54,492 nucleotides of DNA, taken from contig SVGN01000014.1 of the NCBI GenBank assembly GCA_015056315.1, positions 1 to 54,492 on the forward strand, given 5' to 3'. Under the pieces are notes generated by a model, which saw only the letters and a program-made list of their open reading frames with translations, did not search any database and had not been told where the DNA came from. The position numbers and the translations under genes were made by a program. This DNA comes from Clostridiales bacterium (GTDB taxonomy: Bacteria > Bacillota > Clostridia > Christensenellales > Aristaeellaceae). Shown here piece after piece: positions 1-54,355 of the stretch; the first letter of the stretch is position 1; every line of letters begins with the position of its first letter.

Positions 1-66
1 CATTGTCCTTATTACTTGTTCCTTAAATTCCGGTGTATACCTCTTGTTTGGCATTCCTTTTGGCAT
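1..66 (-). CDS. IS3-family transposase OrfA, N-terminus only (runs off window)
   Basis: The first 22 codons of a minus-strand reading frame start at an ATG at 66 and continue past the left edge. The peptide begins MPKGMPNKRYTPEFKEQV, the typical opening of the helix-turn-helix OrfA protein of IS3-family elements, which binds the element ends and is joined to the DDE transposase OrfB by frameshifting. The start lies 36 bp inside a terminal inverted repeat (102-126), as expected for an IS3 left end. The rest of the element is outside the window, so whether it is intact cannot be judged. Confidence 0.75.
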   Translation of the reverse strand, partial: MPKGMPNKRYTPEFKEQVIRTM

Positions 67-126
67 ATTAAACACCCCACTTGTTATTCAGTATATCATA
101 CTGTCTAACAAATGGGGTGCAGTTCA
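1..126 (-). mobile_element. Left end of an IS3-like insertion sequence
   Basis: The end is marked by a 25-bp sequence at 102-126. Read on the minus strand it begins TGAACTGCACCCC and continues ATTTGTTAGACA, closely resembling IS3/IS150-group inverted repeats. It is followed 36 bp further in by the OrfA start. Only one end is in the window, so the target duplication and element length are unknown. The element abuts a copy of the cassette right-end repeat (178-240), so it may sit inside or replace part of a cassette. Confidence 0.65.
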
Positions 127-177
127 GAAAGGGTTTGCAGTTTTATTTGTAGTTATTCGCCGTAGCACATCATGATG

Positions 178-240
178 TAATGCGAAGGACAACTCTTTCC
201 TTTCCATCCTTCTTACTGGCGTGACCCGGTTTTTCACTCC
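178..240. repeat. Cassette right-end repeat, degenerate copy 1
   Basis: This stretch carries the core GCGAAGGAYAACTC followed by TCCTTTCCATC and then ACTGGCG with a short T run. The same order occurs in the right ends of the cassettes at 21615-21737 and 54387-54492. The AACAGCAA hairpin and promoter present in the other copies cannot be recognised here; the 50 bp before this copy have diverged, and the IS3-like element ends at 126. Confidence 0.55.
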
Positions 241-20756: not shown

Positions 20757-20794
20757 GAGAGCGGACGGCGCACAGCAGCGCCGGTTGCGTGAGG

Positions 20795-20970
20795 AAAGCC
20801 CTGGTTGGCGGGAGGGTTCTTAAGGAACAGTTTATCCAATAGCGAACAAGCGAGCATCCAACATTTGGATGCTCGCTTGCTTATGTGCTTATGTAAACGC
20901 AATGCACCGGAACGGTGCGTATCATTGCGCCCTCAGAGATGGTAGGAATTTGTTTTCGTCTACTGAAAAA
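20795..20970. repeat. Cassette left end, copy A
   Basis: It begins AAAGCC and can be aligned over about 175 bp with 53289-53465. Shared landmarks are AAGGAAC, TTATCC, a 14-bp hairpin (20847-20860 with 20866-20879, arms GCGAGCATCC), a second hairpin GCACCG-gaa-CGGTGC, then TTGCGCCCTCA and GTTTTCGT. Where the two copies differ inside the stems, both partners have changed, so pairing is kept. Confidence 0.85.
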
Positions 20971-20983
20971 AACGATTTTGTCA

Positions 20984-21586
20984 CTAAGCCTTTAGAAAAT
21001 GTTGATATGACAGTATACCAATTGGAAAGAAATACGTGCACCAACCCAATAGTGCAAAGGTTCCACCGTTTCCGGCTTCTTCGCTTGCCATACTTGTAAA
21101 CATCCCCGTCATCGGCAGAAAAAAACAACTGACGAAGAAAATACCGTGTATGAGCATCAAGCATTTCAGCCACTTATCTGTTTTGCTGTTGGGAACGATA
21201 GACAGGCCGATGAAGAACGTAGAAAGGGCCATCATTCCATAGCCGAGCAGATCATAATTGAACAGCAGCCCACCACGCTGAAAATCCAGTATTCGAAGGG
21301 CTTGCTCGCTCAAATCATCCAGCCGGACAGTTGTTGTTTGTGCAAAATATACCAAAAGAATCAATACTGCATAGACCGCAGCCATAACTACACCGATATT
21401 GGCAGCGACCCGTCGTTCCTCGCAACTTTCATATTGAAAACCCACCGCCATCATAATGTATCCCAAGGGCAAAAACATACACACGAGATACGAACCAAAC
21501 GGAAAATCAACAATCATACATACAGCAAAAAGAAAGACCGTGATTGTGACAACCGCCGCACCAATTCGGGGAATTGTTCTGTTCAT
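20984..21586 (-). CDS. Cassette cargo: six-helix membrane protein, unknown function
   Basis: The 200-residue protein has about six hydrophobic segments, beginning IGAAVVTITVFLFAVCMIV and ending FALLGWCTYFFPIGIL. I recognise no family. Base composition is much poorer in GC than the surrounding genes, suggesting acquisition. A strong ribosome binding site (GAGGAGGG) precedes the ATG. Transcription would come from the TTGCTG/TATAAT promoter in the cassette right end (21620-21649). The stop codon lies immediately inside the left end. Confidence 0.75.
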   Translation of the reverse strand: MNRTIPRIGAAVVTITVFLFAVCMIVDFPFGSYLVCMFLPLGYIMMAVGFQYESCEERRVAANIGVVMAAVYAVLILLVYFAQTTTVRLDDLSEQALRILDFQRGGLLFNYDLLGYGMMALSTFFIGLSIVPNSKTDKWLKCLMLIHGIFFVSCFFLPMTGMFTSMASEEAGNGGTFALLGWCTYFFPIGILSYQHFLKA

Positions 21587-21614
21587 CTTTAGCCCTCCTC
21601 AATTCAATTGATCA

Positions 21615-21737
21615 CTCTCATTATAGCATGGCGGTACAAGAAACAGCAAATCTTAGCGGGCTTGCTGTTTCGAGATTACTGTGGCATAAAGCGAAGGATA
21701 ACTCCATCCTTTCCATCACCCCCACTGGCGGGGCTTT
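21615..21737. repeat. Cassette right end, copy A
   Basis: Shares order and most bases with 54387-54492: GAAACAGCAA/TTGCTGTTTC hairpin, then GCGAAGGATAACTCC with TCCTTTCCATC, then on the plus strand CCCC-ACTGGC-GGGG followed by CTTTCTTTTT, which looks like an intrinsic terminator facing out of the cassette. The outermost six bases, GGCTTT, are the inverse of the left end. Confidence 0.85.
21620..21649 (-). promoter_or_regulatory. Promoter inside cassette A right end
   Basis: On the minus strand TTGCTG (21644-21649), an 18-bp spacer and TATAAT (21620-21625) point into the cassette gene. The -35 lies in one arm of the right-end hairpin. The equivalent sequences exist in the other cassette. Confidence 0.75.
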
Positions 21738-21783
21738 CTTTTTATTTTCGCCCTCCAGCTTCATGATTGTAAATCATTGGCAC

Positions 21784-29979: not shown

Positions 29980-29995
29980 TGGGTCGCCGGGGAGC

Positions 29996-30063
29996 GTTCT
30001 GAAGGGATGGTCGATCCGGCAACCAACAAAGGAGCATCCGGCGTTCGGATGCTCCTTTGTTGT
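29996..30063. repeat. Solo cassette left-end-like sequence with hairpin
   Basis: TTCTGAAGG, ATCCGG, AAC and AACAAA-GAGCATCCGG appear in the same order as at 53323-53360, ending in a 16-bp perfect hairpin (30025-30040 with 30046-30061). No second hairpin, cargo or right end follows. It sits after the GH2 stop and could also serve as its terminator. Confidence 0.6.
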
Positions 30064-30102
30064 ATAAAAAGGGGGGCTGTTGCTTTCGCAACAGCCCCCT
30101 TC
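30064..30102 (-). terminator. Terminator of the 5'-nucleotidase gene
   Basis: On the minus strand, GGGGGCTGTTGC/GCAACAGCCCCC with a GAAA loop is followed by TTTTT. Confidence 0.9.
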
Positions 30103-53215: not shown

Positions 53216-53288
53216 GGTTATCAGGGGCGGCGGAAGGATGCCGTTGTAAGCCATCGGCAAGCAAAGCCGGCTCGCCGAACCCCCCAAA

Positions 53289-53465
53289 AAAGCCTCCCTT
53301 GTGGTGGGAGAATTCTGAAGGAACAATTTATCCGGTAACGAACAAACGAGCATCCGGTTGGATGCTCGTTTGCTTATGTACGTGTACAAACACAATGCAC
53401 TGGAACAGTGCGTATAATTGCGCCCTCATGAGAGGGGAGAAATCCGTTTTCGTTTGCTCAACAAA
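53289..53465. repeat. Cassette left end, copy B
   Basis: Begins AAAGCC like copy A. Hairpin 1 has a 13-bp stem (53343-53355 with 53360-53372, arms ACGAGCATCC) and hairpin 2 is GCACTG-gaa-CAGTGC. Relative to copy A, stem positions changed in pairs (GC to AT in hairpin 1, CG to TA in hairpin 2). Confidence 0.85.
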
Positions 53466-53506: not shown

Positions 53507-54355
53507 TTAAATATCAATTTTATCTTTTGACATATCTGATGCTGATACATATGGATGGTGATATGGTTTCCTGCCTTTTGGTATTCCCATTATTTTGGCA
53601 ATCCTAAAGTCATTTGGATTTACATTCATTTTCTCAAAATCTTTATCTGTTAATTTGTAGCCAATTGCGTTTTTGGGGCAATAGCTGACGCAAGCCATAC
53701 ATTGAGCACAGTTGTGCTTAAAATGAGGTTTGCTATTTATCAGTTCAATATTATTCACAGGACAAACCCTTGAACAAACTCCGCAAGAAACACAGCTGTT
53801 GCTGATTTTAAATCCGTAATCAGCAACATTCTGGATACCCTTGTATTTTTTCATGCTTGCAATTTTTGCGCGTATCATTGCATTAGCACGAGGGATTTTA
53901 CGAATTATTCTGTCAGAAATTTCTTTGCCGATTTTTTCAAGTTGCTTTTCAGTTCTAGGAATTACAATTTTGGGAGATGGCATAGGGGGATATACTGTTA
54001 CATAATTAGCAACATTGTTTACTTTTGTACCATAGGACAGATTGATACCTTTACTTTTAAGAATCTGTTCGAGTTTCTCACACGCTTCTCCGCAAATTAT
54101 TGAAGGCATAGCAACGCAAAAAACATATGCATTGGGGTTAATTTTGAGCCTTTGAACAAACTCCGCAGCGGGTTCTGGCATCGTCCAATGGTATACAGGA
54201 AAAACAAATCCTACTACATCACAATGTTCTGCCGAATTATCGTCAGGACTACTCTTCATTGATATTAAAGTACAATTATTAATATACCTTCCAATTTTTA
54301 AAGCAGCACGCAGACTATTTCCCGTACCCGTAAAATAGTATATTTTATTTTCCAC
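53507..54355 (-). CDS. Cassette cargo: EFR1-type flavodoxin-ferredoxin fusion
   Basis: 282 residues. The N-terminal flavodoxin-like domain shows the FMN-phosphate loop YYFTGTGNSL (residues 6-15) and FVFPVYHWTMP. The C-terminal part has two [4Fe-4S] motifs, CVSCGVCSRVCP (near 188) and CAQCMACVSYCP (near 216). It would pass electrons between a ferredoxin-type donor and an unknown acceptor. Low GC and AT-ending codons mark it as foreign to this genome. A GGAGGG ribosome binding site precedes the ATG; the promoter is in the cassette end. Confidence 0.88.
   Translation of the reverse strand: MENKIYYFTGTGNSLRAALKIGRYINNCTLISMKSSPDDNSAEHCDVVGFVFPVYHWTMPEPAAEFVQRLKINPNAYVFCVAMPSIICGEACEKLEQILKSKGINLSYGTKVNNVANYVTVYPPMPSPKIVIPRTEKQLEKIGKEISDRIIRKIPRANAMIRAKIASMKKYKGIQNVADYGFKISNSCVSCGVCSRVCPVNNIELINSKPHFKHNCAQCMACVSYCPKNAIGYKLTDKDFEKMNVNPNDFRIAKIMGIPKGRKPYHHPYVSASDMSKDKIDI

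Follow-up and report, generated by a model that had tools for sequence, protein, structure and literature searches.

The window that we analysed comprises all 54,492 nucleotides of contig C58, which belongs to a draft genome of 3.09 Mb (G000) with 80% completeness. It includes two cassettes, A and B, each of which places a gene between a left end (LE) and a right end (RE). As an earlier note on this DNA had claimed, the two cassettes share the same ends in the same orientation (LE, 80% identity over 166 bases, E 5e-35; RE, 83% identity over 92 nt) and enclose cargo genes that are unrelated to each other and that both read from right to left. Cassette A spans positions 20806 to 21727 from TG to TG, wherein the element proper (20808–21725) is flanked by two copies of this dinucleotide. 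In cassette B, the TG begins at 53302, and the element proper runs from 53304 past the contig end, which leaves its final base off the contig. The bounds first assigned, 20795 to 21737 and from 53289, identify these same elements, but the proper limits are those given here. Likewise, the AAAGCC and its inverse that had been taken for the outermost bases of the element are actually the arms of a split host terminator, and the bases just outside the LE are not conserved among the 15 copies in this genome.

Table 1. Features of cassettes A and B and of other end copies in the window
Feature	Positions	Strand	Remarks
Left arm of host terminator hairpin split by cassette A, ending in target dinucleotide TG (20806–20807)	20790..20807	.	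Joined with right arm, folds at -20.3 kcal/mol
LE of cassette A: inverted repeat ~20808–20837, then two hairpins with covarying pairs	20806..20946	+	Model match 20806–20946, E 5.6e-35
Cargo gene of cassette A, 200 aa, membrane-type according to the earlier note, no family match	20984..21586	-	No Pfam match at 1e-6, no NCBIfam match
RE of cassette A: promoter-like sequence, hairpin, terminal inverted repeat	21602..21725	+	
Second TG (21726–21727) and right arm of terminator split by cassette A	21726..21738	.	
Left arm of terminator split by cassette B, and TG (53302–53303)	53287..53303	.	Right arm off contig
LE of cassette B	53302..53439	+	Model match 53302–53439, E 2.0e-34
Cargo gene of cassette B, 282-aa EFR1-family ferrodoxin	53507..54355	-	
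RE of cassette B, cut by contig end	54367..54492	+	Complete in near-identical G014 cassette (L043/L052)
RE of a third cassette, broken by IS3-like end, TG at 217–218, cargo off contig	127..218	+	Left boundary by eye
Outer part of an LE (inverted repeat and hairpin), alone directly after a stop codon, no RE	29987..30064	+	

Other copies of the ends also lie on this contig (Table 1). The lone LE part looks as if a cassette leftover had become the terminator of the gene that precedes it. By eye, the same IS3-like terminus is found within the RE hairpin region of three cassettes (window positions 1 to 126, and L029 and L031 on contigs C15 and C98 of the same genome), and a different IS-like end is found within the RE hairpin region in L030 (C70); the impression is of insertion sequences with a preference for the cassette hairpin. 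Rfam, at gathering scores, has zero matches within the window. A homologue of the cassette A cargo occurs in genome G009 (L317), where the ends were not detected around it, and a copy in genome G014 (L316) has a partial LE and a partial RE, as in a decayed cassette. When an empty site for cassette A was sought in relatives, the neighbouring gene was present and the gene order was not kept.

The LE and RE of a cassette are two different sequences whose termini form imperfect inverted repeats of ~30 bp with an inner box, AAGGAnnnAnTTATCC. Across the outer 32 bases of 61 cassettes, the LE and the reverse-complemented RE are 56% identical in register and 74% identical in the box, compared with 22–40% when the sequences are slid and 28% when they are shuffled. 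The box occurs 73 times in six genomes and the reversed pattern 0 times, where a few of the 73 matches appear by eye to fall in coding sequence. Both LE hairpins exhibit covariation: at one base pair both partners have changed in 8 of 40 sequences, and at another in 21 of 40. A loose pattern for promoter-like sequence matches 61 of 72 REs, and 23 of 72 once each RE has been shuffled a single time. Given that the RE usually carries promoter-like sequence and the LE carries conserved hairpins, the cassette looks like a promoter–gene–terminator unit. The cargo had been described as AT-richer than its surroundings, and GC content is indeed lower inside in all 58 cassettes of a first set (mean 0.41 inside versus 0.57 in the flanks).

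As had been supposed, A and B are members of a family of gene cassettes with common ends and unrelated cargo. From 304 sequences we extracted 94 distinct complete LE-to-RE cassettes, 501 to 2187 bp in length, which include no same-flank duplicates at an identity of at least 98%. The ends are therefore not mere isolated terminators, a possibility that was looked for, although partial LEs and LEs without a detected RE also occur. The latter, for which no RE was found inside 2.6 kb, lie at 30 distinct places, six of which have an RE-like box; several of the 30 are contig or locus ends or have an RE broken by an insertion sequence. Seven LEs are listed where just the outer part survives. In three genomes (L026, L095, L288), an LE without a detected RE precedes what by eye seems to be the same sdpR/sdpI-type operon, and this LE could be an inherited remnant or a co-opted end.

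Within G000 the LE has 15 matches and the RE 12, several of them at contig ends. A DNA search found the LE in 10 of 60 genomes, counting G000 itself, and a covariance model found it in 40 of the 308 genomes of the taxonomic family, distributed over 6 of 50 genera. We also used an LE search pattern, which recovers 34 of 80 known LEs and for which 1.6 chance matches are expected, and it matched 111 stretches in a named genome collection. Among the 80 of these 111 matches that were listed, 77 are in MAGs of Clostridia, Clostridiales or Oscillospiraceae, 49 of which are titled deer, goat, sheep or buffalo gut and 28 of which come without a stated source; the other three (Gottesmanbacteria, Alphaproteobacteria and Cloacimonadota) look like chance. 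Phages, plasmids and viral contigs yielded zero matches, and no paper describing these ends was among the matches listed from the open-access literature. Nearly all sequence examined is from draft genomes, and it holds three distinct tandem RE–LE junctions in all; further arrays may hide where contigs break at the ends.

The cargoes of the 94 cassettes fall into 75 groups (grouped at 35% identity), and in 89 of the 94 the longest open reading frame runs from RE to LE. Among the families listed, GNAT acetyltransferases are the commonest cargo (PF00583 in 2 of 37 and 7 of 38 representatives), followed by phosphotransferases, HTH regulators, glyoxalases and hydrolases, and further by a MATE transporter, methyltransferases, an amidase, nucleotide kinases and unknowns. 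Forty of the 42 representatives of at least 180 aa were scanned singly at 1e-6, and the remaining two were scanned apart from these. Of 33 shorter representatives, one was scanned singly and 32 in grouped scans, for which the 25 commonest of 73 and of 58 families were listed. Pfam at 1e-6 gave no family for five of the 42 longer representatives, and NCBIfam gave no match for four of these five or for the cargo of cassette A. No recombinase or transposase family was matched by any of these 42 longer representatives in the family scans, and it is on this result that the putative movement in trans, as proposed in the earlier note, rests.

Atypical cassettes exist as well. One (L027, ~626–3739 on contig C29 of the same genome) is 3.1 kb long and carries a 900-aa gene in the opposite direction; by eye its product is EAL-type, and its RE keeps little besides the inverted repeat. 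Another carries a 4.5-kb operon as cargo. REs with the box AAGGATAAATTTATCC were considered as parts of a possible autonomous element and rejected, as one of them bounds the 4.5-kb operon cassette and the others run off their contigs.

We evaluated the nature of the insertion target by comparing the left and right flanks, which are complementary to each other. Seventy distinct sites were drawn from the 94 cassettes, the others being duplicates or having no 30 flank bases or complete end match. At 30 of these 70 sites the best partner of the left arm is its own right arm (~1 expected), and at 45 of 70 the own right arm is among the top three. A hairpin of -15 kcal/mol or lower with at least six spanning pairs forms at 50 of 70 sites versus 8.7% of 3000 swapped pairs, and 20 of 70 sites fall short of the -15 kcal/mol mark. 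AAAA is present in 54 of the left flanks and TTTT in 55 of the right flanks. Weaker thresholds fail to discriminate because A-runs and T-runs pair in any combination: -8 kcal/mol is reached at 57 of 70 real sites and by 57% of swapped pairs, and at least six spanning pairs alone are found at 36 of 42 real sites and in 74% of swapped pairs. The latter set of 42 derives from 44 sites, with cassette B of the window and L089 left out because they have no right flank, and with the right-end register moved one base by hand in L071, L090, L111 and L123. The pairing of own arms and the excess over swapped pairs at -15 kcal/mol therefore place most cassettes at the apex of terminator-like palindromes.

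The orientation of neighbouring genes, which was assessed by codon-position scoring, is convergent at 36 of 71 sites and divergent at 6 of 71. This count is rough, in that the scoring labels cassette A divergent despite a 278-aa open reading frame that reads toward A from the left, and it disagrees with a cruder count using plain longest open reading frames, in which 26 of 67 sites are divergent.

The dinucleotides at the two ends of the cassettes are TG/TG at 54 of the 70 sites and CG/CG, TA/TA and CT/CT at one site each, and they are mismatched at 13. The CT/CT site is probably a register shift, and some of the 13 mismatches are a one-base shift of the assigned register. Two empty copies allow a direct comparison. 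In one case (L059), three near-identical units stand in a row, two of them empty and one filled, where no bases have been lost and TG is present at both ends. In the other (L211), the paralogous empty unit has CG and the filled site has CG at both ends. Both comparisons are between paralogous units inside one genome (G014), such that the difference between occupied and empty sites that the earlier note had looked for between strains is seen, but on another basis than a strain comparison. Tandem repeat units with a terminator palindrome recur at several places in this genome (L059:1459–2020; L058, L061 and L054) and provided the unoccupied sites for these comparisons. The CG/CG and TA/TA pairs suggest that both copies of the dinucleotide come from the target, as a 2-bp target duplication at a pyrimidine–purine step, where the differing dinucleotides at 13 of 70 sites make a true duplication less than certain.

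Near-identical cassettes are found at unrelated places. Over 1194 bp, cassette B and a cassette in G014 share 96.3% identity; L161 is 89–99% identical over 942–1070 bases to the five other DUF5131 cassettes, and L203, L206 and L231 are mutually 97–99% identical. The left flanks of all near-identical pairs nevertheless match at only 0.36–0.44, as do random flanks (mean 0.40, range 0.30–0.47). Conversely, orthologous left flanks can adjoin different contents. L006 and L128 are 92% identical over 250 bp of left flank with unrelated inner sequence (just 140 inner bases being available for L128), and L033 and L170 are 88% identical over 248 bp and have different contents; a third left-flank pair, at 77% identity, is without inner sequence for comparison. 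Thus, the cassettes have moved as precise units.

The likely explanation is that A and B come from a large family of mobile cassettes, non-autonomous and usually with a single gene, that an enzyme acting in trans puts at the apex of terminator palindromes. Such an enzyme would pair the two ends and either cut and paste the unit or form a circle. The unit would then go in at a pyrimidine–purine step in the apex, with the enzyme recognizing either the hairpin or cruciform itself or sequence features common to such terminators. The landing sites would be intergenic, and the cassette's own hairpins may stand in for the split terminator.

The enzyme was sought in 17 genomes of the genus and in wider sets. 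The integron integrase model TIGR02249 had no match over its cut-off in the 17 genomes, all of which have weak tyrosine-recombinase matches; these genomes are drafts, and thus the missing integrase is not proof of absence. Serine recombinase domains (PF07508 and PF00239) are found in 14 and 16 of the 17 genomes, respectively, and neither is found in G000, which is 80% complete. A large serine recombinase of 731–747 aa from four cassette-bearing genomes of the genus was rejected as the mover on two grounds. The survey of 308 genomes showed it fused to a SpoVT C-terminus that forms a separate gene in many other genomes, and of the 18 genomes in which a near-full-length copy occurs, 8 bear cassettes, versus 40 bearers in all among the 308. 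The in-frame fusion with this sporulation regulator (L263, L271, L272 and L264 in G014, G016, G001 and G008, and others) perhaps reflects an element that has integrated in spoVT and whose excision is possibly linked to development. Tyrosine recombinases were likewise set aside, being present in 17 of 17 genomes including cassette-free ones, as was an IS110-type transposase (PF02371), present in 4 of 17 and in none of G000, G006, G008, G009, G014 and G030. In the genomes searched, then, none of IntI, serine recombinases, IS110 or tyrosine recombinases follows the cassettes.

Two kinds of enzyme are compatible with the precise movement observed. It is quite possible, if short of an even chance, that the cassettes are mobile insertion cassettes of one insertion sequence family with a palindrome-targeting transposase like that of IS1272 (IS1182 family). 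The imperfect terminal inverted repeats with their inner box are as expected for such an element, the end dinucleotide follows the target (CG in L211, TA/TA at one site), and hairpin targeting without a sequence consensus is described for IS1272 in the passages cited (PMC4923244). However, the loci read from the 73 box matches in six genomes include no copy in which such ends enclose a transposase. Comparison with the two empty copies here also shows no loss, whereas part of the stem-loop is removed by IS1272.

Somewhat more doubtful, yet still a tenable proposal, is that a serine or tyrosine site-specific recombinase moves the cassettes via a circle, with the terminator palindromes as attachment sites and the RE–LE joint as an imperfect dyad around a core dinucleotide, which would make the system a functional analogue of the integron. 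This proposal agrees with the wide cargo of the single-gene units, the presence of a dinucleotide at both ends, the dyad that the ends form and the one shared dinucleotide at each of the three tandem RE–LE junctions (TG at two, CG at one). It is opposed by the recombinase searches described above, in which no integron integrase exceeded the cut-off in the genus, no serine recombinase domain was found in G000 and tyrosine recombinases extended to cassette-free genomes, and by a core dinucleotide that varies from site to site. In favour of a recombinase are the dyad at the joint and the integron-like cargo, and slightly more in favour of a transposase are the varied dinucleotide and the inverted repeats with their inner box. 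That the dinucleotide varies is explained somewhat better by a transposase that duplicates 2 bp of target than by a site-specific recombinase whose core is fixed. That the ends instead spread by homologous recombination, or are repeated terminators next to native genes with no dedicated enzyme, is very improbable: lone LE fragments where a terminator is expected and the 30 LEs with no detected RE would suit it, but boundaries are fixed to a base or two at 70 sites, near-identical units occur at unrelated left flanks and the empty copies at L059 and L211 are exact.

Gut Clostridia, many of them from ruminants, hold a pool of small single-gene units with common ends that have moved as units into terminator loops. 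Integrons are the standard example of gathering and swapping single genes. We lean, with modest confidence, toward regarding the present cassettes as an integron-independent system in six genera of one Clostridia family, in which promoter–gene–terminator units are exchanged between species and kept singly in terminator loops, harmless landing sites over the chromosome, by a kind of enzyme not yet linked to gene cassettes. If so, a second, unrelated route would explain how gut Clostridia in which no integrons are visible trade single genes (acetyltransferases, phosphotransferases, transporters, hydrolases and regulators). By landing generally in terminator loops, an element would have a simple way to spare its host. 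With the LE and RE as queries, mobile genes that lack annotation can be sought in these genomes, and the enzyme question becomes open to direct test.

Several known systems invite comparison. Integron cassettes have one attC and carry cargo of similar kinds, including GNAT acetyltransferases, phosphotransferases, hydrolases and unknowns. Like them, the cassettes described here are small single-gene units shared between species. They differ in having two unlike ends instead of one attC, promoter-like sequence in the RE and mostly one cassette per scattered site; tandem arrangement was seen at three RE–LE junctions, and contig breaks at the ends may hide others. The difference from integron cassettes that the earlier note had suggested also agrees with the integron integrase not being found over the cut-off in these drafts (0 of 17 genomes).

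Mobile insertion cassettes consist of inverted-repeat ends around passenger genes. As far as the cited passages go, examples such as MIC231 of Bacillus cereus have no transposase of their own, and the cognate IS231 transposase acts on them in trans (PMC3129680, PMC1196294). The present cassettes resemble them in having inverted-repeat ends around passenger genes and no transposase in 42 of 75 cargo groups, nor in the rest among the families listed from grouped scans. The differences are the 75 cargo groups, the promoter-like sequence and hairpins inside the ends and the insertion at terminator apexes, as well as a parent insertion sequence that was not found among the box loci read. For the targeting of hairpins, the closest precedent is IS1272/TnSha1 (IS1182 family) of staphylococci, which, according to the portions cited, targets hairpins, several of which are transcription terminators, with little sequence preference (PMC4923244), and deletes part of the stem-loop with no target duplication (PMC4923244, PMC5678879). 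Unlike in that description, the stem-loop is kept at the two empty copies here and two bases recur at both ends.

Because the defining feature tested does not hold for integrons or for IS1272, and the parent insertion sequence expected of a mobile insertion cassette was not found, we set these cassettes apart as a variant, and membership in the mobile insertion cassettes or in the integron cassettes is not established. The system works like mobile insertion cassettes with integron-like cargo, and the nearest known kinds are mobile insertion cassettes by structure and integron cassettes by biology.
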